Source of the DNA: Legionella qingyii
GTDB taxonomy: Bacteria > Pseudomonadota > Gammaproteobacteria > Legionellales > Legionellaceae
Direction: 5' to 3'
Assembly: GCF_003184185.1 (NCBI RefSeq)
Contig: NZ_QHJG01000048.1
Span: 1-12,901, forward strand
DNA: 12,901 nucleotides
The notes beneath the pieces were generated by a model. The model had not been told where the DNA came from and did not search any database. It saw only the letters and a list, made by a program, of their open reading frames with translations. This document shows, piece by piece, positions 1-12,901 of the stretch. The position numbers and the translations under genes were made by a program. Within the stretch, counting starts at the first letter, position 1. Each line of letters opens with the position of its first letter.

Positions 1-59
1 ATTTGTAGATCCTTAAGAGTATAGTTAGACAAGATAAGAATTTGAAACTACTTTAGCGG

Positions 60-78
60 GACGGGGACAAATCCCGTC
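60..78. repeat. GC-rich hairpin, CTGCCC/GGGCAG
   Basis: A perfect 6-bp stem with a 7-nt loop stands out in AT-rich DNA. No T tract follows directly on either side, so a terminator role for a gene ending to the left is only possible, not shown. Confidence 0.4.
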
Positions 79-143
79 GTACCAATAGCGATCAAAAATA
101 CATCATTTAAGTAACCCAATTTTTTCTATATTATATCAAAAAT

Positions 144-172
144 AACTGTCTCATTAGCTAAGAAACATGAGA
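144..172 (+). promoter_or_regulatory. candidate promoter of the 264-aa ankyrin gene
   Basis: A perfect -35 TTGACA (144-149) is followed after 17 nt by a weak -10 TACTCT (167-172). The -10 and the stretch AGAGTA at 149-154 are perfect inverted copies of each other, so the spacer is flanked by a 6-bp inverted repeat that could be an operator. The coding start lies 47 nt downstream. Confidence 0.3.
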
Positions 173-218
173 AAAATTAGAGCAAACTGTAATAAATCAT
201 GGAATAAACTCCTAATAT

Positions 219-1013
219 TACCCACAACGAGGATTTCATTATATACATTTTGTGTTATCACAACTCGGACTTAAAATATGTAAACAACTACGTCACATAT
301 TGTTAAAGATGCTTTTTCGTCTCCTCTACGAATTTCATATGGGTCTAAAGTAATTGTGTTAATAGTGGGGGTGTTTAGTTAGAGGAAATAGGAGCCAAAA
401 TAGATTCTTTTGTTAACTAATGTGCTACGATTTGTAAGAGCATTTTGTACCACAACTTAAATGAATAGGATAATTATGTTACCCTCTAAAACGAAATCTA
501 GAGCGGACATCTTGCTCCCTAAACGTCAACTAATCGATAAATCAGCGAGTACTACAGAGTTAAAGTCTTCGACGATAAGTGTTTAATAATAAATTTCGAT
601 TTCTGTAGTTTTGAGAATTATGATTTCTATAATTCTACGAAGAATCGTATTAAGTAGTTAATCCTCCTAACCGACTTCAACCGCTTTACTATCTACTGGT
701 TCCAGCATGAAAATTTCGATTTCGTCTCGCTTATTTAGATTCGTTACTGAGTATACCTTGCAACGCAATGTTAGATACCTTAAATGACTTAAATCGACTT
801 TTAGTTCTCGGTCTATTCCGACTTGCTTTACTACGTTTATTTTATAATCTACTTCTTGATCGTAATTAATGGGTAGCGATAATACTCTTTCTCTTATGAC
901 TAAAAAGAAATCCTTTAAGTTATTGGAGAAATAAACCTCGTCCTCCATACGGTTATCTTAAAGGACTGCTGAGACAGATACTTATAGTTGTCTTCGGAAA
1001 TTTAGTTTTTATT
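219..1013 (+). CDS. ankyrin-repeat-like protein, 264 aa
   Basis: The protein begins MGVAPKVIYV and runs 264 codons to TAA. Residues about 54-82 and 88-112 have the ankyrin pattern of paired helices (SPLSSVLS...LNILVKHGVEF; DFALDLACRTRDLQLISYLVAHDV). These are degenerate: the classical TPLH signature is absent. The C-terminal half (about 113-264) matches no family I recognise and ends in a polar tail. The start is supported by GAGG (209-212) 6 nt before the ATG. There is no signal peptide or membrane segment, so it is cytoplasmic or secreted by a dedicated system. Ankyrin proteins of intracellular bacteria often bind host proteins, but that role here is inference. It is one of three ankyrin-type genes in the first 5.2 kb. 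A hairpin follows the stop. Confidence 0.85.
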
Positions 1014-1032
1014 CATATTAAATTAATATGAA
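1012..1032. terminator. hairpin immediately after the 264-aa gene
   Basis: AAGTATAAT and ATTATACTT form a perfect 9-bp AT-only stem with a 3-nt loop that starts inside the stop codon. A second inverted pair, ACAAAAA/TTTTTGT, lies about 10 nt further on. Together they could attenuate read-through, but the stem has little GC and a terminator role is uncertain. Confidence 0.35.
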
Positions 1033-1056
1033 CCACTGTTTTTGTTTATAGATAAA

Positions 1057-1084
1057 AACAGGCGTTTTATTCGTAAAAATATTA
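1057..1084 (+). promoter_or_regulatory. candidate promoter of the 194-aa gene
   Basis: TTGTCC (1057-1062) and a perfect TATAAT (1079-1084) are separated by 16 nt, and the predicted start codon is 43 nt downstream. This is one of the better sigma-70-like pairs in the window. It suggests the 194-aa gene is transcribed separately from its left neighbour. Confidence 0.45.
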
Positions 1085-1127
1085 GAATACTATTTGACGT
1101 GAAAGAAAATGAAAATATCTTTAGGAA

Positions 1128-1712
1128 TACAAACTTTATATATTTCTATTAGTGAAATAATACACGATACTTTTGGATTTGTTATCAAGACCTAAGTGAG
1201 TAAGTGAGAGATATTTCTTGAATTATTGTTTGTTCTGGTGTCCTTACACCCATCTAGGCTGAGTGTGTTCATGCCTACGCTTTGAAGACCTATTTTAAGA
1301 TGCTAATGTTGATAACTTTGTTTGGGAATGAGTCCTACGTATACTTGTACTTCACCGAACGAAATATCTTGCTGAGTATCTTTTACCACCAATATGAACA
1401 GAACTCTAAAGTTCAAATTACTTTCTGCGTAATTCCGTAGTATTTCTGGGAGTCGTAAACAAACTTTGGTAATTTTTGCATCTACAAAGTATGTAAGCGT
1501 TACTTCTATAACTATCCAAGGTATTATAAGTTCTTTACTTTTTAAGACAACGTCTTAAATATTTTTGAGAATGGCTTAAGTAGCCATTAGAAAACAGACA
1601 TGGTAGACTATGAAATCATTGTAGTTATAATCATTTTAAATTATAAATAGTTTTAGGATAACGACTACTACTCGGTTTACCTGGTTATTTATATTTTAGA
1701 AGTTAATAAATT
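1128..1712 (+). CDS. hypothetical protein, 194 aa
   Basis: The protein begins MFEIYKDNHF and ends NGPINIKSSII before TAA. I do not recognise a family. It is soluble, without signal peptide or membrane helix, and mostly helical in appearance (about residues 45-170, for example VACFIERLIENGGYTCLEIS and MKNSVAEFIKTLTEFIGNLL). ATG 1128 is the first in frame after a TAA at 1092. A second in-frame ATG at 1161 is possible, because the ribosome site before 1128 is weak (AGAAA). It follows the ankyrin gene on the same strand at 114 nt with its own promoter-like pair, and may belong to the same host-interaction set by position only. The coding frame is certain; the function is unknown. Confidence 0.75.
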
Positions 1713-1730
1713 TTAGAAGAAGATCTGCTC

Positions 1731-1753
1731 CTCCCGGCCCCATAACGGGGGAG
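1731..1753. terminator. candidate terminator between convergent genes
   Basis: GGGG TATTG CCCC forms a compact stem, extended by GAG/CTC on the outside across a small bulge. On the + side it is followed by a short T-rich run (1754-1759). It lies 19 nt after the stop of the 194-aa gene and about 70 nt beyond the stop of the convergent 249-aa gene, which is the expected place for a terminator. Confidence 0.45.
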
Positions 1754-1825
1754 AACAAACTATTGGTATTGCGTGATCGAATAGGAACTTAGCGATAATC
1801 TTACGTTTACCGACTACGGATTAAT

Positions 1826-2575
1826 GATGGATTCTTCACCACAATATCAAAGAAAACTTAGTAACGAGAGATAAAGTCCCGAAAGTCTTAAGGGATACAG
1901 ATCTCATTTTGAGAATCTTGTAAATAAACGAACCCAATACCATAGACTATTACGACACTCACCGCCTCGCAGGTATAAGAGTACTAGAACATCACGCACA
2001 AGTAAAAAAGGCCGAAATAAACGACCAAGATGTGCACGTAAAAGGGGAAACGCAACGGGTTATAGTAGAGGTATATCTAGAAAACTATAAACTAAGTTCT
2101 TGAAACGCTCGTATGATAGAACTATTCAAGATGAAGGCCCTATAAAAAGAAGTTGACGGGGTTAAGGTGGTCGAGCTTAGCAACGGTTGTATAGAAACGA
2201 TTTTAGTAAAAATAAATATAAATCTACTCTTTACAGTACTTTTCATAGACTTCGTCTCGGAGCGGGATATGACATTCGCTCGTAGAACGGTCTACCTAGT
2301 ATTTGATCTTGACGTTGTTAATCAAGTCCGAGAAGAAGAAGGAGAAGGAAAAAAACTCCAAATAAATATTTGTAACATAGAAGTTCACGAAGGAAAAGAC
2401 TTAAGAGTAGTAAAAGGTTTAATAAATAGTTTAGAAAAAATTAAAGAAGAAGAGAAAGTTACTAATCTTAAAGGCGATTAACTAGGAGAAACAGATTTGA
2501 TTGCTAGTAGACTTATATTCGGCGAAGGAACAACAAAAAAAGATTTAAGAGAACAAGATTCACACCCAACCTGTA
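1826..2575 (-). CDS. hypothetical charged protein, 249 aa
   Basis: Starts MSNPHLEQEN and ends TITPLLR before TAG. No family is recognised. Three parts can be seen. An N-terminal helical segment (1-50) is rich in E and K. A strongly acidic linker, with a run of six glutamates at about 77-82, precedes it to a compact core (about 83-175) beginning PELIVAVLVYDPSGKMLAYS, with a glycine-rich RAGGIGAVEEKYPGSRTYQD. A polar, probably disordered C-terminal tail (176-249) completes it. There is no signal peptide or membrane segment. The start is the first ATG of the frame with GAGAG about 8 nt upstream; a later ATG (residue 23) is possible. A perfect -10 TATAAT lies at 2619-2614. It is convergent with the 194-aa gene. 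Function unknown. Confidence 0.8.
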
Positions 2576-2613
2576 TTGTTACCGAGAGCCACTTATTTTT
2601 TGTTTATAATACA

Positions 2614-2619
2614 TAATAT
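2614..2619 (-). promoter_or_regulatory. -10-like TATAAT upstream of the 249-aa gene
   Basis: A perfect TATAAT hexamer on the coding strand lies 39 nt before the ATG at 2575. No good -35 stands at the right distance; the nearby TTGACC (2628-2623) is too close. It is therefore only a partial promoter match. Confidence 0.3.
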
Positions 2620-2826
2620 TATCCAGTTTAACTCAAATAACAGATTTTGATCTTTTCCCTGGGATACAACAATTCCGGATAGCGCGGTTATTTTAACTCT
2701 TTTATCCCGAGAAATTTTCATTACTCAATATTAGCAAACCTAATAAATATCGCCAAAATCGACATAACTAAATAAACTAATGAGCACTACTTACTCAGTG
2801 TACAATAAAAACATCAAAACATCGGT

Positions 2827-2847
2827 CCCGAGGTACTATGCCTCGGG
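2827..2847. terminator. perfect GC-rich hairpin downstream of the small ankyrin gene
   Basis: GGGCTCC and GGAGCCC form a perfect 7-bp stem around a 7-nt loop, 30 nt beyond the stop of the leftward 135-aa gene. No T run follows in that direction, so it is either an imperfect intrinsic terminator or another structured element. Confidence 0.45.
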
Positions 2848-2876
2848 TGCTTGAGTCCTAAATTTGAGAGTACCCA

Positions 2877-3284
2877 AATATAAAAGTAACTACTAGAATC
2901 ACACCTCCGCTAATTTCAAAGATTATGTAAAAAAAATGGGTATAGACGTCGATTACAATATCGGCTGTAGTACAGTGATAGTCGGTTTGTACCTAATCGA
3001 GGTAATGAATCTTCTTAAAGTTAGTTTAGGTACAGCAATAGTCCTATTTCAAAATGATGAAGCAAATCTTTATCTCATACAAATAAACAAAAAACCATAA
3101 CTTCTCCCCTCAATTAATTAAGAAGTTTGACTATAAGTTTTTATAGTTATTCGAGAAATTAATAAAAAAGCCGACTAACGTTGGCTGGTGTAAAGTATAT
3201 TCATTAACGGAACTGATCTAGAAGTCCATATAGAAGAAATTTTCTTCTGCCTAAACAAGACCTATAAGACTAAAATGACTTGTA
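2877..3284 (-). CDS. small ankyrin-repeat protein, 135 aa
   Basis: Starts MFSKIRISRT and ends LRSSMKI before TAA. Residues about 66-130 contain recognisable ankyrin units: KTNKHTLFLNEVV...LIEILLSNGANPCLADSD followed by MSAITLAADMGKKNVLETLI. The phrase LLSNGANP is the typical end of a repeat. The N-terminal 60 residues are helical, with no known domain. At 135 aa it holds only about two repeats, fewer than most ankyrin proteins, so it may be a remnant or a small adaptor. GAGG about 9 nt before the ATG supports the start, and a TATAAT lies at 3320-3315. No signal peptide. It sits between two other leftward genes; spacings of about 195 and 300 nt argue against tight coupling. Confidence 0.8.
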
Positions 3285-3479
3285 ATAATATTGGAGTATA
3301 ATAAAAACAATTACTAATATTCTTGTAGGTTTAACATAGCTACCAAAATTAGAGTTACAGGCTCTTATATTTGGGTTAGTAGAAGGAAAACCCTGTACCT
3401 AGAATTTCACGATTTTAGATTTGTCGTTCATGAATTATTTTTATAGATACACCACTTTAAACTCGGCGGGTCGGCTGTT

Positions 3480-4559
3480 GATAGATAGATGGAAGGATAT
3501 GTTTATTTAGCGAAAAAGTGGACGACTTTAATTCATTTTGAATTCAAATAGACGATAAAAAGCGAGGTTCATTTCTACTTACTCTTCACTTTGTTTATTG
3601 TAATTTTATCGCTAGCTCTAATTTTCTTTTCCGGAAACTCAACTGGGCCTTTTCTTTAGTATATACAAAAATGGTCGGGCTAACACGTCATCTATGTTAC
3701 CTATCCAATAAGGAGGATTACGGTTGTGTTTATGTCACAGGGAGTACTATTTGAATGCTTATCTTTAATTTATCTTGTCCTTCATTTCTGTGGTATGTTG
3801 AGGGTGTCGTTATTTAGACAGATAGAGTCTTTGTGGTATTACGTTATATTTAGGTAGATAACGGAGGTATCGAGATTCACTCCTTTAATTTTCTCACTAC
3901 CTCTCCTATTACTATACTTTGTGAACTATAGGCGGAGCACAACGCTCTTTTTTTTGTTAGGGCCGCTATTTTATACTTCTTATAAGTCCACTTTATTTGG
4001 TTGGATTCTTCTTACCAACAAATTTTTCATTCTTTGATTACCAATTATACTCGGTATATCAATAGGTTTGGGATATTATAAAATTTTCCAATGTGTGGTC
4101 GTTGTGTTTTTATTTCTTTATCTTAAACTAAAGATGAGGGTCTCAGGTTATCTGGGGTAGCTATAGAAGTTACGGTTTAGCACATAATTTTTCTCATTCT
4201 AACCGTTCGGTCATAAATTTTCATTAAACTGAACGTCACGGGAGTTCTTATTAACGATAATTTCGTCAATAGCTATGCGTTTGGGTTATACAACCTATAT
4301 AAGATCATTAAGATCTTTATGATTTAACTTTTGATCACGCGGGTCTTCGTCTTCGTTTTTAGTGCTTTGGTGAATACTACTTCTTTTCCAGTTGCGGTTC
4401 CATGGGTTTAAATCACTTTAATATATCTGTTCATCGGTTTCGTCTCAAAAGGCATCTTAAAAGATATATAAAACGAACCATTACTATTTAGTACTGGCTT
4501 TCTCGACGTGTCTTCGCCTAATTTAGTTAAAGGGGTTTAGCAAGAAAGAGCGGTTGGTA
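3480..4559 (-). CDS. acyltransferase 3 family membrane protein (OafA/YrhL-like), 359 aa
   Basis: Integral membrane enzyme of the family that transfers acetyl or other acyl groups to surface sugars such as O-antigen, capsule or peptidoglycan. Family hallmarks are visible. EIDLIRFCAALSVMIYHY at about 10-27 carries the conserved Arg and His. FGYLGVDLFFIISGFVIF lies at about 51-68, RITRIYPTYW at 83-92, and VYWTLGVEIKFYFF at about 137-149. The C-terminal LGGITYPLYLLHN (about 281-293) is followed by a last membrane helix. About ten hydrophobic helices fit the family, and the length is normal. ATG 4559 is preferred because GGAG stands 6 nt upstream; an in-frame ATG at 4580 would add seven residues but has no good ribosome site. 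The substrate cannot be told. It diverges from the broken ankyrin gene to its right. Confidence 0.92.
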
Positions 4560-4649
4560 AAGTATGAGGCTAAATTGGTAGGTTAAATTTACGATTCGAC
4601 CGAAACGACGTATTGATAGCCAGGTAAATAGACAGTGATTAAAATCTAC

Positions 4650-4672
4650 ATAGCGATCGAAATAATCGCTAT
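4650..4672. repeat. inverted repeat TATCGCTA/TAGCGATA in divergent intergenic region
   Basis: A perfect 8-bp inverted repeat with a 7-nt loop lies upstream of the acyltransferase gene, in the gap facing the ankyrin remnant. It could be an operator or an orphan terminator. There is no T tract. Confidence 0.4.
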
Positions 4673-4684
4673 AGTAAAATAACT

Positions 4685-5217
4685 GATATGATGTTGGATA
4701 TATCCAAAAGACGAAAAAAGAATTATAGGAAACTTACGTAGTTTGGAGGTTAAGCTGTCCGAAGCCGATTTCCATTAAATCTTCTCTGCTATTTTAATTA
4801 TCTGTAGCAATTTTTTTGTCCCCCGTAACTACGCCGTCCTGAATCGTCGTTTGTTTGTCGAAATGTAGCACGTCGACTTTTCGTTATACTACATTAGTCA
4901 TTAAATGAAAATGCTCGCCCACGATTAGGTTATAATGTTCTATTTCTACCTTTTTGTCGCGAATTAGAAATGAAACCGTTCTACGGAATAATTAATCCGT
5001 TCCATTTTGATCGGGCATAAATTTAGCTGTCGGTCGTTTATGTCTTCTTTTGGATTAATTTGTACGAACATAGCTTGAGAGATTCTGCTTATTCAGTTTT
5101 CTTATAAAATGTGAATGTGTTCTACCATTAGAATAAAAACGCCTGTTGGGTTAACTTAACGGTGTAAATAGTTACGGTAAGGTTCTTTTAAACAAAGTCG
5201 TTAAACCGTTAATAATC
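4685..5217 (+). pseudogene. ankyrin-repeat gene remnant, no start codon and one frameshift
   Basis: Classic ankyrin sequence is readable: QTALHRAAEKQYDVISNLLL, then AGANPILQDKDGKTALNLYFGK. The frame is open from 4685, but it contains no ATG, GTG or TTG before the repeats. The ATG at 4735 is in another frame and stops after 11 codons. After LNLYFGK the frame hits TAA at about 4991. Starting at 4981 in another frame, DALLIRQGKTSPYLNR... continues for about 78 codons to TAG at 5215-5217. This is most simply explained by a single base lost near 4980. The continuation ends in a polar tail, EYFTLTQDGNLIFADN... I infer a decayed relative of the two intact ankyrin genes to the left. A sequencing error could explain the frameshift but not the missing start. 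Confidence 0.75.
4694..4707. repeat. 14-bp perfect palindrome
   Basis: AACCTATATAGGTT is a perfect 14-bp palindrome without a loop. This is the shape expected of a dimeric-regulator operator rather than a terminator. It lies about 135 nt upstream of the acyltransferase start and overlaps the 5' end of the open ankyrin frame. Confidence 0.35.
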
Positions 5218-5401
5218 CGCCAAAAAATCGGAATATATAAGAGGAAAAAACTCACCCATTCTGCGTTTGTTTTTTTGTCGACTTTAACGACCCCGACCAA
5301 GTTTTATCTCCGCGTCATCTACCCTCCCCTGTAAATTTCCGGTATCAATTATGTGTCCGCAACAATAAAAATGTAGTGTCGCGTTCAGTTTAGGCGTATA
5401 G
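5218..5401. other. intergenic stretch left of the transposon
   Basis: No supported gene. A frame of 50 codons from GTG 5253 to TAA 5405 is open but has no ribosome site or recognisable family. It stops inside the left end of the element, so it may be a gene interrupted by the insertion or simply chance. Confidence 0.4.
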
Positions 5402-5455
5402 AATTCAGACTAATAAAACTATTAGTCTGGATTAATCTAAAGGCAAGTGTTGCAA
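5402..5455 (+). repeat. left inverted end with a 13-6-13 recombinase core site
   Basis: Within it, TTAAGTCTGATTA (5402-5414) and TAATCAGACCTAA (5421-5433) are inverted 13-nt arms with one mismatch around a 6-nt spacer, TTTTGA. Paired arms around a 6-8 nt crossover region are the usual architecture of tyrosine-recombinase core sites. The site lies 67 nt before the tnpA start. The adjacent CGTT-CAC-AACG block (5443-5453) is itself a small inverted repeat. Confidence 0.6.
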
Positions 5456-5499
5456 TCTATATACGTTATATAAATCGGTAATAGCAACCTCGCATTTAT

Positions 5500-6122
5500 T
5501 ACTTTCATGTCTTTTAGTTTAATTCAGGAACACTAAAGTCAACCGACCAAGAACTACTGTTAGTAAACGGCTAATTTGGTTAATGTCTAAAGTAAGCTAT
5601 AGAATTATTACAACTATTCAGTGGCACATGGCAGGCTTCGATACGATTGGTAGACTTCGACAAAACCCTCAAGAACAGTCTTTTCGTTTATGTTACCAGA
5701 TCTTATTTGAACCGTTTGAATCGGTCAAAACAACCGACCGATTCCTTATAGTTATCGTGGTTGGTCCATTAACTGGAAGTGCAGTTTATAGCGTAACTAT
5801 TAGAGTTGCTTCATTCTTTGTTTTGTCCGAATTACTTATACATAAGTAATTGAAATTAAGGATACTCGGCGAGGCAATAAGTCGTCAGTTTTTTGATAAA
5901 TCATAAGAGTCACTTTTTACATCGAAAATATAAGCAGGTGTGTACGAAGCAGTATGCGTACGAAGTAGCAACTAATTACGACCGACCCTATACCGCAACC
6001 ATGTTGTTGCTAATCCAGTACGTTCGTATGTTTGTTGTTATTTGTGAATATGCGTATAACTATTATTCCGATACTTTGTTCGGAAATTCGTGATATAGAG
6101 GTGAGTCCTCTTACCGGTTACT
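5500..6122 (+). pseudogene. tnpA: Tn554 TnpA-type tyrosine recombinase, internally deleted
   Basis: The N-terminal DNA-binding part is clear (MKVQKIKLSPCDF..., then KSPCTVRSYANHLKLFWEFL). GGAG stands 8 nt before the ATG. After residue about 92 (VIDLH) the frame passes to fragments of the catalytic domain (IDNLNEVRNKTG) and stops at TGA 5971. A shifted frame from about 5830 carries LNEYVFIN, YSAVKKLF, RPHMLRHTHAS, LGHASIQTT and TYTHID, ending at TGA 6120-6122. These hold the HxxR box, the second His and the Tyr nucleophile. The segment with the first catalytic Arg is missing. About 200 codons remain of the usual 360 or so. I infer at least two deletions, one changing frame. The recombinase should be inactive. 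Its stop overlaps the tnpB start (ATGA). Confidence 0.85.
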
Positions 6123-7501
6123 TTCGTTATCGTATATTAGGTACATTGGTTAGTCTTATACTGCGGGATGAACTATTTCTACAAACCGACCGATCACTAC
6201 ATCCTAATTCGGGACGACGTACGGTTCCTCGTATAATAAATGGTAAAAGTTTACAATGATGATGCACCAATTTTTTTCGTCGGTACTTTAAGCATGCAAA
6301 TGTCCGTCGTTGCTCTTCGAAAAGTTGAACATCTCCTATATATTCTTCAAAATTAGTAGACCTAAGAATGGAGGTTTGTGACCTTTAATCGAATCGGGGA
6401 TTATTATAGTTGGCTCGTGAATATCAACTAAAATAAGCCAAAGATAGTAATTTTCCAAATTCGGGGTACTGGTCTCCGTATTGTAATTATTTGTAGTCCG
6501 ATAAAATAGTCCAACGGAATGTTCTCCTTACCGATTTGACCGGTCGTTTCGGATAGTATAAACTAAGTCTAGAAGGAGCTGCGTGCTATTAACAGGGTGC
6601 CATGTAGTCGTTACTCCACGACCAAGTCAATTTTTACGTAGAATTACCTAATTGACTAACCTACGTCGCGAAACAATAGTAAAACTACCTTTGACCGTCC
6701 GCTTAATCACTTCAAACGGTAGAGTTAAAATTGACAGACCTTTTTCTATTACTACCACTAACCAAAGAATCTCATTTACTTTTATTTGAATTTTCCCAAG
6801 CGAATTAAGGATAGAGATTTCGAACGCAACTACGACAATACCGGGTCGTTCTTATGAACTCTGTTTGTCGGAGGTCTAACGTCAAAGAAAAGGGTCCTAC
6901 GCAGCATAGTTTTAGGGGATGACAGAGTCGCGGGGTATAATTGTCTCAAAATTTGTTCGAACGGCAACTTTTCTTATAATAACTATGGTTGCCCCACCAT
7001 ACCTTCAAGAGAAGTGTAGTTAAATCCGTGTGCTATCCATGGGTCTACTATTTAAGACCACACGGTGTCCATTACCAAGTTGTAATAGAACCGGTACTCA
7101 GTGGACTCTACTGACGTGCGATACGGGTATAAGTATTACTTTGATACTTCCGACGAAAATGACTAATAGTCCTCTTCGAATATCTATAGGTTCCGTTCCA
7201 ATTTAGGAGGCTGCTAGTCTAATTACGCGCAACCGAATTCTTTTTATAATACTGGGTTCGGGACGGGTTACCGAATACGCGGGAAGGAGAGTGGGTTGTT
7301 TTTACGGGGGTACGATTACGGACAAATTGGACGCGTGTGAAATCTTGTAGTTTCGTCATAGAATTTGTCGTATTTAGGGTCGACCTGCTTTGACGATTTC
7401 AGTAACTTTTACGTTTTGTTTTACCGACCGTTGCTTAACAACTCTACTTATGACTTCATCGGTCGTTGAATTTCAATTAATAATCATGTAACCTTTTAAT
7501 T
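6119..7501 (+). CDS. tnpB: Tn554 TnpB-type tyrosine recombinase, 460 aa
   Basis: Second site-specific recombinase of Tn554-family elements, acting with TnpA and TnpC in DNA strand exchange. It starts MKAIAYNPCN at the ATG overlapping the tnpA stop, and is uninterrupted. The N-terminal SAM-like DNA-binding region lies at about 60-140. All catalytic boxes are present. ETGRRISE holds the first Arg (194/195), HQFRHT gives His300 and Arg303, LGHE gives His326, and ARYAHI gives Tyr335 as nucleophile. A C-terminal cysteine cluster (C387, C396, C402, C405, with CPHANACLTCAHF) is typical of this subfamily and probably binds zinc. It is shorter than the 630 aa of staphylococcal TnpB; the extra N-terminal part is absent here. 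It looks functional although its partner TnpA is broken. tnpC follows after 4 nt. Confidence 0.93.
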
Positions 7502-7505
7502 TCGC

Positions 7506-7889
7506 TACTTATTTCCGTGTCTTTTAGTTTAATTCCGAGATTTCCTTCGTCGTGCACCTTTTGCCCGACGATGATAACTTGCCCAAAATCATCGAAATTT
7601 TCGATACCTTCTTGTTAGTAATGGATAATTAAAACTTAGTCAACGTTCAAAACGATTCCAAAGTTTTTGGACCAACATACGTAGACTACTTTATTTTCTT
7701 AATTAATAATTTCGGTTTTTACTTCTACCCATATTAGAAATATACTTTTTGGTTCGACGGTTTAATTAGTGATTTCTATTCCTTTAATCACATGAGTAGT
7801 TCGTTTTGTTTTACAACTCCGTCCTTTAACTACTTAATTTTTTTGTTGAGCTTCATCGTATACGACGCGAAATATTTTTTCTTCTAATC
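7506..7889 (+). CDS. tnpC: Tn554 TnpC-type accessory transposition protein, 127 aa
   Basis: Begins MNKGTENQIKALKEAARGKR and ends ALYKKED. Position after tnpB, length (125 aa in Tn554) and composition fit TnpC, which influences the frequency and orientation of transposition and is not itself a recombinase. Residues about 18-70 resemble a small helical DNA-binding domain (TIERVLVALKAM, FESVASFAKVSKTWLY). Residues about 85-122 form a heptad-patterned coiled coil (ISVLIKQNKMLRQEIDELKK), suggesting oligomerisation. The ATG lies 4 nt after the tnpB stop, so translation is probably coupled; the ribosome site is weak. A long hairpin follows 15 nt after the stop. Confidence 0.9.
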
Positions 7890-7904
7890 AAGTTAACATC
7901 ATGA

Positions 7905-7966
7905 AATTGGAACACAACTATTTTGGTGAGAGTTAAATAGAGCATCAAAATAGTTGTGTCCCAATT
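7905..7966. terminator. long hairpin after tnpC
   Basis: TTAACC plus 15 further bases at 7905-7925 pair with 7946-7966. This is a 21-bp inverted repeat with one G-T type mismatch around a 20-nt loop. It separates the convergent tnpC and glycosyltransferase-like genes, 15 and 16 nt from their stops. No clear T tract follows, but a bidirectional terminator is the simplest role. A recombinase site is an alternative. Confidence 0.6.
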
Positions 7967-7982
7967 GGGAGTTATCAATCCG

Positions 7983-9131
7983 GATAGAGTTTTAATATAG
8001 CCGTATAAAAAGACCACGGCAAAAAAATAGATTAGGGTTCAGAAGAAAGTTTGCTCGACCAACTACGAGTCGACATTTTTTACTTCGATATCATAATCAT
8101 TTTATAACCGCCCCGTTTATTCCAAAAGGGTTTACGCTTATTCAACCAAACGGAAGGTTGTGCCGAACTAAGTCATCGCGTGGTCCATGGCGAACACGCT
8201 AAGATAGACGTCGTCTACGTCGGAGTAAGGGGCATTATAATTGGGAATTTTTTCGTGAGACCATTTATCCTAGTAATTACCAATTAAGTCCATGAAATTA
8301 GGCTGGGTGTTATGATAGACCATTTTATTAAAATTTAACTAGCAAATAGAGTCCTACAAAAGCTATCTAGAAATTTTAGAGACGATTTATTTGTAGGTTT
8401 AAAACATACGGCCCTACCTCTGGTTCTGCTTGAACGTACAAGCCTACGAAAAAATTGAGACAATTATTTGTTAGGTTTTTCGGACTTAGCTAAAGTTGAC
8501 CAACTCACCACGACGAATACTTACGATTACTAAATAGACCACTTTGGGCATTTCAGAGAAACTCGAGGAACCCCGAAAAACATGAAGGTCTCGGACCATA
8601 TATTCGTAACAGTTATGAATTTACAGGTCACTGCTTATCTGATAGTGGTCCTTGGACTTTTAGAAGAAATCGACACAGGTTTCCCTATCGGGTAAATTGT
8701 AACCTAAAAAACGGATTCCTTCTATGTACTAAGGTATTCGTTACCAATAGACCGAACTTGTATTTGAGTATTCGGTAATTATGACCTTATAACTCTCTGA
8801 GACGGTTGACCTTACCTTAAAGTAACAAATGTCTACCATGAGGTTTTATCCTTATTAGTTAGACAACCGAAACTTATATAACGGGATGGTATAATTAAAC
8901 AACAAATCAATTGTTGGGAAGTCCTTTCCTCAGACTCAATCTAACCTCTTAAAGTTCTTCACTATAAAATAATTGATTACTACTACTAACCTTCGATAGG
9001 TGTGCAACAACTCGTCGAAACCAATCACTTTATTCTTGCCAAAAAACAGCCTGTAGTACGAGATCTCGTAATTAGCAAAAATTTCGATTCAGACATAGTG
9101 GATGTGATGATTGTTTTTTACGATAAAAGTA
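7983..9131 (-). CDS. glycosyltransferase-like protein (probable GT-B fold), 382 aa
   Basis: Starts MKIAFFVSSVGDTDLALKTI, a Rossmann-like first strand and loop as in GT-B glycosyltransferases. The second half looks like the nucleotide-sugar-binding domain. It has strand SLAFISSTTQPVE (about 200-213), QVRLGLHPG (about 233-241), and near the end GNEAASAADRIAQ... with LLNQAVLEGKPTY (about 319-331), where family members recognise the sugar donor. No hydrophobic segment is seen, so it is cytosolic or peripheral. Family assignment is by fold pattern only; I cannot name a subfamily or substrate, and a UDP-GlcNAc-epimerase-like enzyme is possible. GGAAG 4 nt before the ATG fixes the start; an in-frame ATG 13 codons upstream is less likely. 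It lies inside the inverted ends, opposite to tnpABC, as a candidate passenger gene. Confidence 0.75.
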
Positions 9132-9168
9132 TTATGAAGGTTATTCAGCACCTCGTGTTTTTTTCCTG

Positions 9169-9198
9169 TAAAATGTTAAAAAATGATACAATAAAGTT
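9169..9198 (-). promoter_or_regulatory. candidate promoter of the glycosyltransferase-like gene
   Basis: On the coding strand TTGAAA (9198-9193) and TAAAAT (9174-9169) are 18 nt apart, and the start codon is 37 nt downstream. Just upstream is the hairpin AGACTG/CAGTCT (9204-9224), which may be regulatory. Confidence 0.35.
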
Positions 9199-9302
9199 AT
9201 TATTCTGACTTACAAAATGTCAGATTTAAGTAATTCTATATAAAAATTATAGATAACTTGAATTTGTTTACAGACTCTATATAAATGATGGATTAGCAAT
9301 AC

Positions 9303-9355
9303 TTGCAACACTTGCTGTAGGAGAACCAAGAAAATTATATCTATTAGTCTGAATT
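9303..9355 (-). repeat. right inverted end, half core site
   Basis: TAATCAGACTTAA (9343-9355) is an exact inverted copy of the outer arm at 5402-5414, and AACGTTGTGAACG (9303-9315) is an exact inverted copy of the inner block at 5443-5455. The second core arm expected at 9324-9336 matches at only about 7 of 13 positions, so this is a half site. It also lies 73 nt upstream of the second, truncated tnpA. Confidence 0.6.
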
Positions 9356-9427
9356 TAATTAACATCATAAGTATCATAAGTTACTATCTTTAATTCGCAT
9401 ATAAGCGCAAGAAGTAACTCCATAAAA

Positions 9428-9910
9428 TACTTTCAGGTTTTTTAATTTAACTCAAGAATACTACAGTGTACCTATCAAGAACTACTGTTGGTGAACGGCT
9501 AATTTGGGTAATGGCTCAAACAAGCGATAGATTTATTACATCTGTTCAGTGGCACATGTCACTTTTCGATACACATAACGAACTTCAATAAAACCCTAAT
9601 AAATCGACTATTTGTTGAATTAACCGTTTGGTAATTGGAACGTTCGAATCGACCTAAACACCCGACCAATTCTGTCAGTTTTCTTGGTTGAGGCTATCAA
9701 CTAGATGTACTTTAGGTTCGCCGTTCTTTTGGACGGTGATATTTGCAATAAGACCCGACGAATAGATCAAAAATAGCGAAAGTATTGGTTGAACCATTGT
9801 GTCTACAATTTCAGTGACTTTGTCATTTGAATGGGTTATTAGCTATATTTCGTGAAAACGTAGTACAAATATTCTTATTTGGAAGTGAGACAGTTAGTTT
9901 GATAAAAACT
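9428..9910 (+). pseudogene. tnpA: second TnpA-type recombinase, truncated to its N-terminal part
   Basis: The frame of 160 codons (MKVQKIKLSSYDV...) is a close relative of the N-terminus at 5500: by hand alignment about 61 of the first 83 residues are identical. It continues further than the first copy, through the rest of the SAM-like binding region (ATINVILGCLSSFYRFHNQL), and then leaves the family with YKNKPSLCQSNYF and TGA. None of the catalytic boxes (R, HxxR, H, Y) is present, and no tnpB or tnpC follows. It is therefore the broken left part of another Tn554-like element, cut at about 9890. A weak ribosome site (TTGAGG, 9416-9421) precedes the ATG. It lies in the same direction as the first copy, only 73 nt outside the right inverted end. 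Confidence 0.85.
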
Positions 9911-10014
9911 TGTCAAGATATCTGAGCGACGTACTCAAGCGGGTTTTATTTAAACCGAATGCGGACAACATTTAAAACGCTGTTTGGGGAACCGTATGGT
10001 ATTCCTTGATAATA

Positions 10015-12654
10015 AATTCTGTTTCTTATTGATAGACTTAGAAGTAGAAGTCTTGATCTCAGTCGAGGTATAAGTCTAAGCCTACGTCTTAACAGGGATA
10101 GTTTTATAAGTAAGTTTGTATTCAATTTATTTGTAGCAAGACTTATTCTGTCTAAAACCACTTACATTAGTTTTAGTTGTGGCAGGAGTAGTCGTATGAA
10201 ATTCTAATTTAGTCCGTGTAGCCCGCGAAGTAGGTTATGTTACAGTCAGTATAGTAGTCATCAATTTGTTGCTTATACTAATCGTAGAAGAAATACGTCT
10301 AAATAGTTAACAAGGTTCCTTATTGGAAGCGATTCACCAAAAAGGTCCAATAATTTGAGTTTGTCCAGTCGGTCGAGCAGCGTTAGTTTCCTTCGCTATA
10401 GTAGTTATCTTTCTACGACTAAAAGGTTCTCGAGGTCCTTAACGAGTAACGGTTCTTTTAGGTCGTATAGTCGTCTTTTACTATTCTAACAACAATTTTG
10501 TAGCCGTAGTAGGAGTTATCGTCGCTAGTGAAGCAGGACTGTTTACTCTGGATTGACAAGCGACCAATTTAGTCAATTAACTCGATTTCACTGAAGTAAA
10601 AGTCGCTATCGACTGTTGTTTGTTAGTGTTACTTAATTAAGATAAAAAAGTTTTAGATATCTGAATTTTAGTCATTCACTTATGGGTAAGAACTCATTAT
10701 CAAATTTTACGGCGACGTGTATTGCTTAGAAAAAGAGAAGAAGTAGTTTATGGAGTGCCGACTACCAAAAGTTCTGGAATGGGGCCGGTAGCCGTTACCA
10801 AAATATATCTCATGCAAGCCGAAGTTATTATCTCCGGTCCGCAAATAATCGTCACCAGCCGCATAGTCCGTTTAGTTTTGATTTTATCGGCAAAAGTAGG
10901 GACATTTAGTTTTGTGATAAAGCAAGAGAACGGTTTGAAACGCGGAATAGTTGGTCCGCATGGAGTAATTTACGCCTATTTATCAGGGGATCACTGAATT
11001 AATGTAAAAAGGCAAGAAGTCATACTCCTCGTACGAAAAATTCACGAAGAACGTGACGATCTATGTAGAGAAATAATTACGGCATAAATACTACTTTATA
11101 GCAAAATATTCTTGGTGATTTCCTGCCTATAAACCGAAACTTTACTATTCGCTGAGCTAGAAGTCCGTACATCCGGTTTTTCCTACAAAGTGCAAGCCGT
11201 TGCTAATGTAAGGGGTTTCACTAGTCGGGGAAAAATTTATTCCTACATTCTACGCTACCGAATACGACACGTATTAGCGAATTTCCTACGTTTGAGTTTA
11301 TGTGAAATGGACTCATTCCCGCAAGTCGTGCGTTTAAGAGAGAGGTCGCGCCTGCATTTGCGAGTAGAAATACCGGAAGCATATTAAAATGTGGTTTGCG
11401 TATAAAATTACGTACTAATCCTTGTAGTGACCAACTCTCATTCCCCGCGAGGGACGAGAGGTCTATTGGGCGTTCTTATGACAAAGAAAAAAAGTTAAGT
11501 CGTAGATCGGTCGATCCTTTAGGTAGCATTAGACGACTCATAACAAAAACATTGTCATTTTTGTCTAAAACTATACGCATGGGTAACTTTCTTGTTCCTA
11601 GCGAAAGGACGTAAAGTTAGTTATTCAAAACATAATGGTGTCGTCGAACCCAATTTACATGTACTTTTAGCCCTAATAGAACGAGAAATAACTCGTATAG
11701 TGCTATGGGAAGATGAGGAAGACGTAATTTTTGACGTGACCTTATAACGCCAAAGGGGTAAAGTAGGTAAAGTGCTACACGAGCGGCTCGAAGCCGTAGG
11801 GTAGCTGAACAATGCATTACTTAGGGCGCTATAACTCGCTGATCTTTGAACCATAAATTACTACGATTTTTGAGTAGCAATTGACTGACCGGTCGGAAAT
11901 TCGCTAGTAATTATCGTAAGTTTAGCGAAAACCGAACAGAAGCGCGCTTTAATGATCCTGCAGCCTACAGTCGAGAGTTAAACCCACACCATAGCAAGTG
12001 AACGAATACTAAAAACTTACGGCACTTTTTAAATGGACGAACTCGTCATAATGCTATTTATAATCGGACGTCTAGAAAGCGAAGTGCAAGAAAAAACCCA
12101 CAAAAATATTTGAGAACAAGGAGCAGTGACAGACTTAGTAGTCTATTTGTAAGTGATATTATACAAAATCGTTCACAAAGAACAACTCGTTCGTCAGACG
12201 ATTTTATTAAGTCGCTTGCCAAGAACGAAACTCCGGCGTTAAATAACTATCGCCGTGCATTCGACTCCGTTCCAAGAAGGCAATTTAGTACTGCGTAGCT
12301 AAGTATCTACATAAATAGTTAATTACGTATTTCCTGCAGTAGTCTAAAAAGGCTCACTCCGTTTTATATTTTAAGCGGGAAATTTTTATCTATTACTGCA
12401 CATCAGCAAACGTATAGTATTAGAAACTGTTTGAGGTAAAATTTTCTAGCACCTTACTAGAGGGGGAGAACCCACGTAAACGATATGTTAAGTTCTAGAC
12501 AAAATAACTCATTGTCTCTTAGAAGTTAGACAAAAAATTAGAGATTTAATCGGAAAAAAAATAGGAAACAAAAATTTAGTAAGTCTACAAAATTGTCAAA
12601 CAACATAAGGAGAAAAAAACTCCATAGCATAAAAAACCAGTCCCTATAGTTGTA
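10015..12654 (-). CDS. large hypothetical protein with acidic tail, 879 aa
   Basis: Uninterrupted for 879 codons, from MLISLTKKYD to a Ser/Glu/Asp tail. I recognise no family. A lysine-rich helical N-terminus (1-55) comes first. An acidic patch, SDDSDSDEEQEF, lies at 171-182. A likely folded centre (about 265-500) contains YRGIHYVTSRWDAEARRAHR, SGKVYLSLHPLSDYAQH and PSHLTSLFKKGLI. The region at about 660-815 is built of short leucine/acidic helices (LTLAQLTDLTSEQLG; MLDFLGNEQFLELLENQHLS). The tail at 856-879 is almost only S, E, D, G and Y. No signal peptide or membrane helix is seen. Parts of the gene are visibly richer in GC than the ankyrin genes, suggesting separate acquisition. Size, isolation and an acidic C-terminus resemble secreted effectors of intracellular bacteria; that is inference. 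The ribosome site is weak; the ATG is the first after an in-frame TGA. Confidence 0.85.
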
Positions 12655-12694
12655 CTTTTAACCATGAGATTCAAACTTATTCTTTTTTCCTCGC

Positions 12695-12724
12695 TAACAT
12701 AAAGTAAATTTTCCGTTTATTGTT
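12695..12724 (-). promoter_or_regulatory. candidate promoter of the 879-aa gene
   Basis: TTGTTA (12724-12719) and TACAAT (12700-12695) are 18 nt apart on the coding strand, and the ATG is 40 nt downstream. The spacing and both hexamers are reasonable sigma-70 matches. Confidence 0.4.
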
Positions 12725-12755
12725 CGTGGAACTAAAGACTAACTAGCGAGTTACT

Positions 12756-12901
12756 GGAATGTCCGTTGCTTGATCTCGAAAACCTGACTTTCTAGTGGAC
12801 CCATAAGGACCCGCCGCAAAGATGACCTTTAGTTTTCTATTTTCTTGGGTATTATAAGTAAACAAACTTGTCCCTAGTTGTCTTTAAAATGCAGTATATA
12901 A
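12756..12901 (+). pseudogene. GrpB/UPF0157 family gene, 5'-truncated and cut by the window edge
   Basis: The frame after TGA 12753-12755 reads LGIPGRRFYWKSKDKRTHNI and then HLFEQGSTEILRHI up to the edge. This is the characteristic later half of GrpB/UPF0157 proteins (GIPGRR, RTHHxHxF, GSxEIxRHLxFRDYL), a nucleotidyltransferase-fold family of unclear function. The conserved N-terminal half, including the HxGSTAVPG box, is not found upstream in any frame, and no start codon precedes the conserved part. I infer that the 5' half was lost, probably when the neighbouring region was rearranged. The 3' end is outside the window. Confidence 0.75.

Follow-up and report, generated by a model that had tools for sequence, protein, structure and literature searches.

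Does the 12,901-base stretch of contig NZ_QHJG01000048.1 analysed here (positions 1-12,901; the window) encode anything in the orientation in which it is printed? The original prediction was that it codes only when complemented without reversal. Complementing a sequence without reversing it and reversing it without complementing it give the two strands of one duplex, referred to here as the mirrored reading; all mirrored features are given in window coordinates and were read as they stand, with no sequence mended. The prediction was borne out by the open reading frames (ORFs); the protein families and their relatives, the order of the genes and the oligomer composition likewise fit the complement only. 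The window is very probably part of a public 41,916-base contig from a relative of Legionella and Tatlockia whose letters are stored in mirror order, that is, reversed without being complemented. What is new beyond the earlier claim is evidence that the fault most likely lies in the public record and that false proteins have already been produced from it.

The printed text, searched on both strands, holds four ORFs of at least 80 amino acids (aa), the longest of 104 aa, and a single one of at least 100 aa, covering 2.4% of the sequence. The mirrored reading holds 12 ORFs of at least 100 aa, which total 3,515 aa, reach 879 aa and cover 79%. One of these, a 121-aa ORF at 6625-6990, lies antisense over a 460-aa recombinase and is probably a shadow, leaving 11 of the 12 plausible. 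Two controls were used. First-order Markov sequences (n=200) contained on average 0.73 ORFs of at least 100 aa (maximum 4), with a coverage of at most 10.4% and ORFs of up to 194 aa. The first 12,901 bases of each of 12 Legionellaceae control loci contained 8-13 such ORFs in the native text and 0-9, with a coverage of at most 19.9%, when complemented without reversal. Therefore, the window behaves like a mirrored natural sequence. Gene coverage in the flipped reading had been put at about 85%; a list of 13 mirrored features, intact or decayed, gives 83%. Short printed ORFs at 2167-2481 and 10722-10997 had also been said to overlie flipped genes, and this is true of all four printed ORFs of at least 80 aa, each of which falls within a mirrored ORF:

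667-948: printed ORF of at least 80 aa
2167-2481: printed ORF of at least 80 aa
5583-5849: printed ORF of at least 80 aa
10722-10997: printed ORF of at least 80 aa

Ten mirrored proteins were compared with Pfam. Four passed the curated cut-off, as an acyltransferase 3, two tyrosine recombinases (one by its N-terminal domain only) and a DUF6262 protein; three had nothing better than sub-cut-off matches (with ankyrin models in two cases), and three gave none. Three of four further mirrored pieces also passed the cut-off (a recombinase N-terminal domain, a recombinase catalytic domain and an ankyrin repeat). None of the four printed ORFs had any Pfam match at an E value of 0.01. Of the families named earlier from the reversed text, tyrosine recombinases and acyltransferase 3 were recovered above cut-off, ankyrin passed in a single piece and fell short in two ORFs, and GrpB fell short. 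In NCBIfam the 460-aa mirrored protein matched XerC- and XerD-type recombinase models, all under their curated cut-offs.

The mirroring is uniform along the window, which from 1 to 12901 is Legionellaceae DNA reversed without complementing, with no internal switch detected. A fifth-order Markov model, trained on 12 Legionellaceae loci and scored in windows of 500 bases, preferred the complement in 49 of 50 windows; in a leave-one-out control the native text was preferred in 244 of 246 windows of the 12 loci. A four-state segmentation, choosing between the printed text, the complement and two other letter swaps, returned one segment, complement from 1 to 12896, at switch penalties of 5, 10 and 15. 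Over the window the two other letter swaps score below the complement by about 2,060 and 2,540 nats. As the signal amounts to about 18 nats per 500 bases, this segmentation could still miss a few hundred bases in printed orientation.

Related DNA was found for the complement only. Twelve loci in the genome collection (Legionella, Tatlockia and Legionellaceae) encode the 382-aa form of a conserved mirrored protein, with a best identity of 94%. Against those 12 loci blastn gave 16 matches for the complement, spread over all 12 and reaching 91% DNA identity, vs none for the printed text or for the two other letter swaps, which were rejected on this result and on their poorer segmentation scores. 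The 12 loci are a biased set, as they were picked with a mirrored protein, and the search was therefore extended to 22 genomes from the genus to which the best-matching genome belongs. Printed 7785-9209 (1,425 bases) matched none of the 22, and the same bases complemented matched 11; five of the 22 also carry members of the 12-locus set (all five matched), so that six of the 11 matches are new. The metagenome-assembled genome of Tatlockia sp. MGR_bin148 (JACCWI010000055.1, locus L001) has 91% DNA identity to the complement over 7785-9209, and matches the mirrored reading only; in this 21-kb locus the rest of the window was not found by blastn, nor the second recombinase by tblastn. The complement DNA of a trio of recombinase-element genes matches two plasmid records, the two in which the trio has its counterpart in equal gene order, and the printed text matches none in the plasmid collection. 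The 460-aa recombinase matches 81 of 143 family genomes at an E value of 0.001, mostly weakly, the best being 72% and 66% identical.

Where, then, does the fault sit? Two of the four printed ORFs (2167-2481 and 10722-10997) were searched against 5.8 billion public proteins, clustered at 90%. Each gave one match, 100% identical over 67% and 79% of the query respectively, and each match lies on a contig of 41,916 bases:

2269-2481, plus strand: false gene with a 70-aa product (P0116), 100% identity in the public protein database, within mirrored ORF 1826-2575
10779-10997, plus strand: false gene with a 72-aa product (P0117), 100% identity in the public protein database, within mirrored ORF 10015-12654

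As both proteins are on contigs of 41,916 bases, they probably share one contig. Both begin at internal ATGs (2269 and 10779), as a gene caller might choose, unlike the GTG and TTG starts of the longer printed ORFs; that such products are in the database at 100% identity indicates that a public record in the printed orientation has seemingly been gene-called already. This in turn speaks against a control and in favour of a faulty record. The fault therefore most likely sits in the public record, which has already yielded false proteins. The original prediction warned that annotation made on the printed strand would be false, and P0116 and P0117 are such annotation, already in the public protein database. 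Its expectation that the printed strands would be without protein hits held for Pfam and failed for the two ORFs searched in the large database, whose matches are apparently the record's own gene predictions. The P0116 cluster has two member sequences and one contig, and the record or protein behind P0116 may exist in two copies.

A strand-handling error and a reversed control had both been offered as explanations, and the first is the best reading of these results. The second, in which a normal contig was mirrored deliberately as a decoy, would show uniform mirroring as seen here, and reversed-not-complemented motif matrices do serve as a control elsewhere (PMC8920891, in excerpt). Text errors and control sequences of this kind are the same transformation, in which base composition and repeats are retained and genes vanish. 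A control is nevertheless highly improbable: both printed ORFs searched have identical products among the public proteins, where a purpose-made decoy should not be present; these have starts unlike those of the longer printed ORFs, and the length of their contig, 41,916 bases, differs from the window's 12,901. In the window the mirroring is apparently unintended and stored in a public record from which false proteins have come.

A colour-space error, in which the translation of a SOLiD-type assembly set out from an incorrect first base, would need no scripting slip. In the 2-base colour code ACTAA shares its colours with CAGCC, GTCGG and TGATT (PMC4569514, in excerpt). Since TGATT is the unreversed complement of ACTAA, a wrong first base can yield exactly a complement without reversal, as one of three wrong translations. 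However, such an error predicts switches to other decodings, of which there are none in 12,896 positions (an error-free contig would likewise show none), and the two remaining letter swaps fit worse than the complement by the margins given above. A 41.9-kb contig from SOLiD-type reads would also be unusual, and this explanation is highly improbable. Genuine printed-strand coding, or DNA read with opposite polarity, has the two 100% database matches in its favour and can be dismissed almost completely, as each of those searches gave one match only, the printed ORFs fall within longer mirrored ORFs, relatives carry the DNA of the mirrored reading, and we know of no polymerase or ribosome that works with opposite polarity; the lack of a Pfam match in any of the four printed ORFs led to its rejection. 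The printed text also gave no tRNA, no Rfam match at gathering scores and promoter-like sites at chance (40 found, 40.7 expected).

The likeliest cause is a string-reversal slip in text handling, in which reverse would have been applied where reverse complement was meant, during assembly post-processing or scaffolding. Such a slip would affect the whole contig, or one piece placed on the minus strand while scaffolding. The mirroring would span at least 2,269 to 10,997, the stretch with both false proteins, and probably extends over the entire contig. The underlying DNA codes normally, with no unusual decoding involved.

Several results weigh against a mirrored public contig. The curated NCBIfam cut-off was passed by none of the five mirrored proteins searched. 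The printed text was not found in viral_contigs or genome_contigs, with one 29-base pattern for each, or in the plasmid and phage collections. Composition has a lone exception at 9001-9500, which leans the opposite way by 4.7 nats. There is no junction inside the window, and the segmentation covers 12.9 kb, the other 29 kb of the 41,916-base contig lying outside it. Terminator-like sites are about twice as frequent as in random sequence in both readings (17 vs 7.3-7.5 expected in the printed text, 14 vs 7.6 in the mirrored), an excess that cannot separate the two. The complement of the 29-base pattern was likewise not found in viral_contigs. A 16S rRNA stretch used there as a base-rate probe for mirrored contigs gave one forward and no reversed matches, a survey without power. 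No report of a reversed-not-complemented contig was found among the papers listed in a literature search by titles and the starts of abstracts, with limited wordings.

What does the DNA hold once it is read in mirror? It carries tnpA-, tnpB- and tnpC-like genes in order, a trio that we take to be of the Tn554 type; the label comes partly from a match (H7) annotated 'Tn554 family transposase B', with 37.8% identity. The element genes are as follows:

5500-6119, mirrored: first recombinase, TnpA-like, decayed, with an N-terminal piece (from 5500) and a C-terminal catalytic piece (5865-6119)
6119-7501, left to right in the complement: second recombinase, TnpB-like, 460 aa, Phage_integrase 86.5 bits (cut-off 27.1)
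7506-7889, left to right: TnpC-like protein, 127 aa (DUF6262), 35 bits (cut-off 29)
9416-9910, mirrored: 5' part of another TnpA-like gene, a fragment, Phage_int_SAM_1 36.1 bits (cut-off 22.3)

The two pieces of the first recombinase are in different frames with the middle missing, and it is not an intact TnpA. The second recombinase is 69.7% identical to a protein encoded on a plasmid of Legionella sainthelensi. The order recombinase, recombinase, DUF6262 protein is common to the window and to plasmids pLA01-117_113k and pB41211CHC_76k, with second recombinases 69-70% identical; the plasmids with this order belong to L. sainthelensi and L. longbeachae. Unlike the modules of those plasmids, the window has a decayed first recombinase and a second 5' fragment about 3.9 kb away. 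Bases 9428-9708 of this fragment have 74% DNA identity to 5500-5780 over about 281 bases, and the fragment at 9416-9910 is 88-89% identical to copies at two loci (L015 and L026) and 69% to those at two others (L014 and L025). Comparison of the sequences suggests that the second TnpA-like fragment stems from a different source element. At the Tatlockia locus (L001:11221-11316) about 32 codons near the tnpC end are retained, 84% identical, beside the conserved 382-aa gene. Together with the absence of the second recombinase from that 21-kb locus, this remnant suggests that the element may have been lost there at the same site.

Outside the recombinase elements the mirrored reading contains:

207-1013, left to right in the complement: 268-aa ORF, ankyrin-like, Ank_2 19.9 bits, short of the 27.3 cut-off
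1128-1712, left to right in the complement: 194-aa ORF, no family above cut-off
1826-2575, right to left when reversed: 249-aa ORF, no family found (Pfam, NCBIfam)
2877-3284, right to left: 135-aa ORF, weak ankyrin match, Ank_4 20.8 bits, below 22.7
3480-4580, right to left: 366-aa gene, acyltransferase 3 (PF01757), 78.6 bits (cut-off 31)
4766-4990, left to right in the complement: ankyrin-repeat remnant, Ank 26.5 bits (cut-off 21.1)
7905-7966: inverted repeat, terminator-like, 24-base arms 92% complementary with 14 bases between them
7983-9170, right to left: protein conserved in Legionellaceae, 395 aa long from its first start or 382 aa if begun at an inner one
10015-12654, right to left: 879-aa ORF with an acidic, serine-rich tail, no Pfam family
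12777-12901, to the window end: GrpB-like piece, 41-residue match, 21.4 bits with E 3.1e-4, short of the 25.5 cut-off

In the mirrored reading two genes run towards each other, and the inverted repeat at 7905-7966, a putative terminator, sits between their ends. The conserved protein at 7983-9170 has, in its 395-aa form, 115 relatives in the protein database, the best at 94%; it is without a Pfam match, and its named relatives, a minority of the 115, are Legionella, Tatlockia, Legionellaceae and unclassified Gammaproteobacteria. One database protein (P0001, a cluster with three members) is 94% identical to the 395-aa form, and as the database is clustered at 90% this entry could conceal a correctly oriented copy. 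The 879-aa protein has a relative in one of 12 Legionellaceae genomes (L013, open frame 959 aa), with 38% identity over residues 42-619; that genome also carries an L. fairfieldensis locus (L005).

The two false proteins, P0116 and P0117, are meaningless and look like short orphans where they stand in the public protein database. AntiFam-type families of spurious proteins deal with translations that are thought not to be real proteins and have entered protein collections (PMC9710616, in excerpt). P0116 and P0117 resemble these cases in being unreal translations in a collection, and their source in the window is a mirrored contig. Since mirroring alters neither the base composition nor the length of a contig, simple checks would not catch it and the contig would be mistaken for DNA that is novel or poor in genes; detection is cheap, by an ORF or family search on the plain complement. 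It is possible, though doubtful, that the fault is dataset-wide, with a processing step having reversed many contigs (for example all minus-strand ones, or one mate per read pair). If this were true, a class of small orphan proteins in public catalogues would be no more than mirror shadows of real genes; taking the plain complement of contigs with many orphan ORFs would offer a screen for them. As biology the mirrored text is not a real feature; the error is a data-quality case, which merits correction of the record and a screen for similar ones. The underlying DNA is most likely an ordinary Legionellaceae accessory stretch when mirrored, biologically unremarkable, and the window thus a data error and not new biology.

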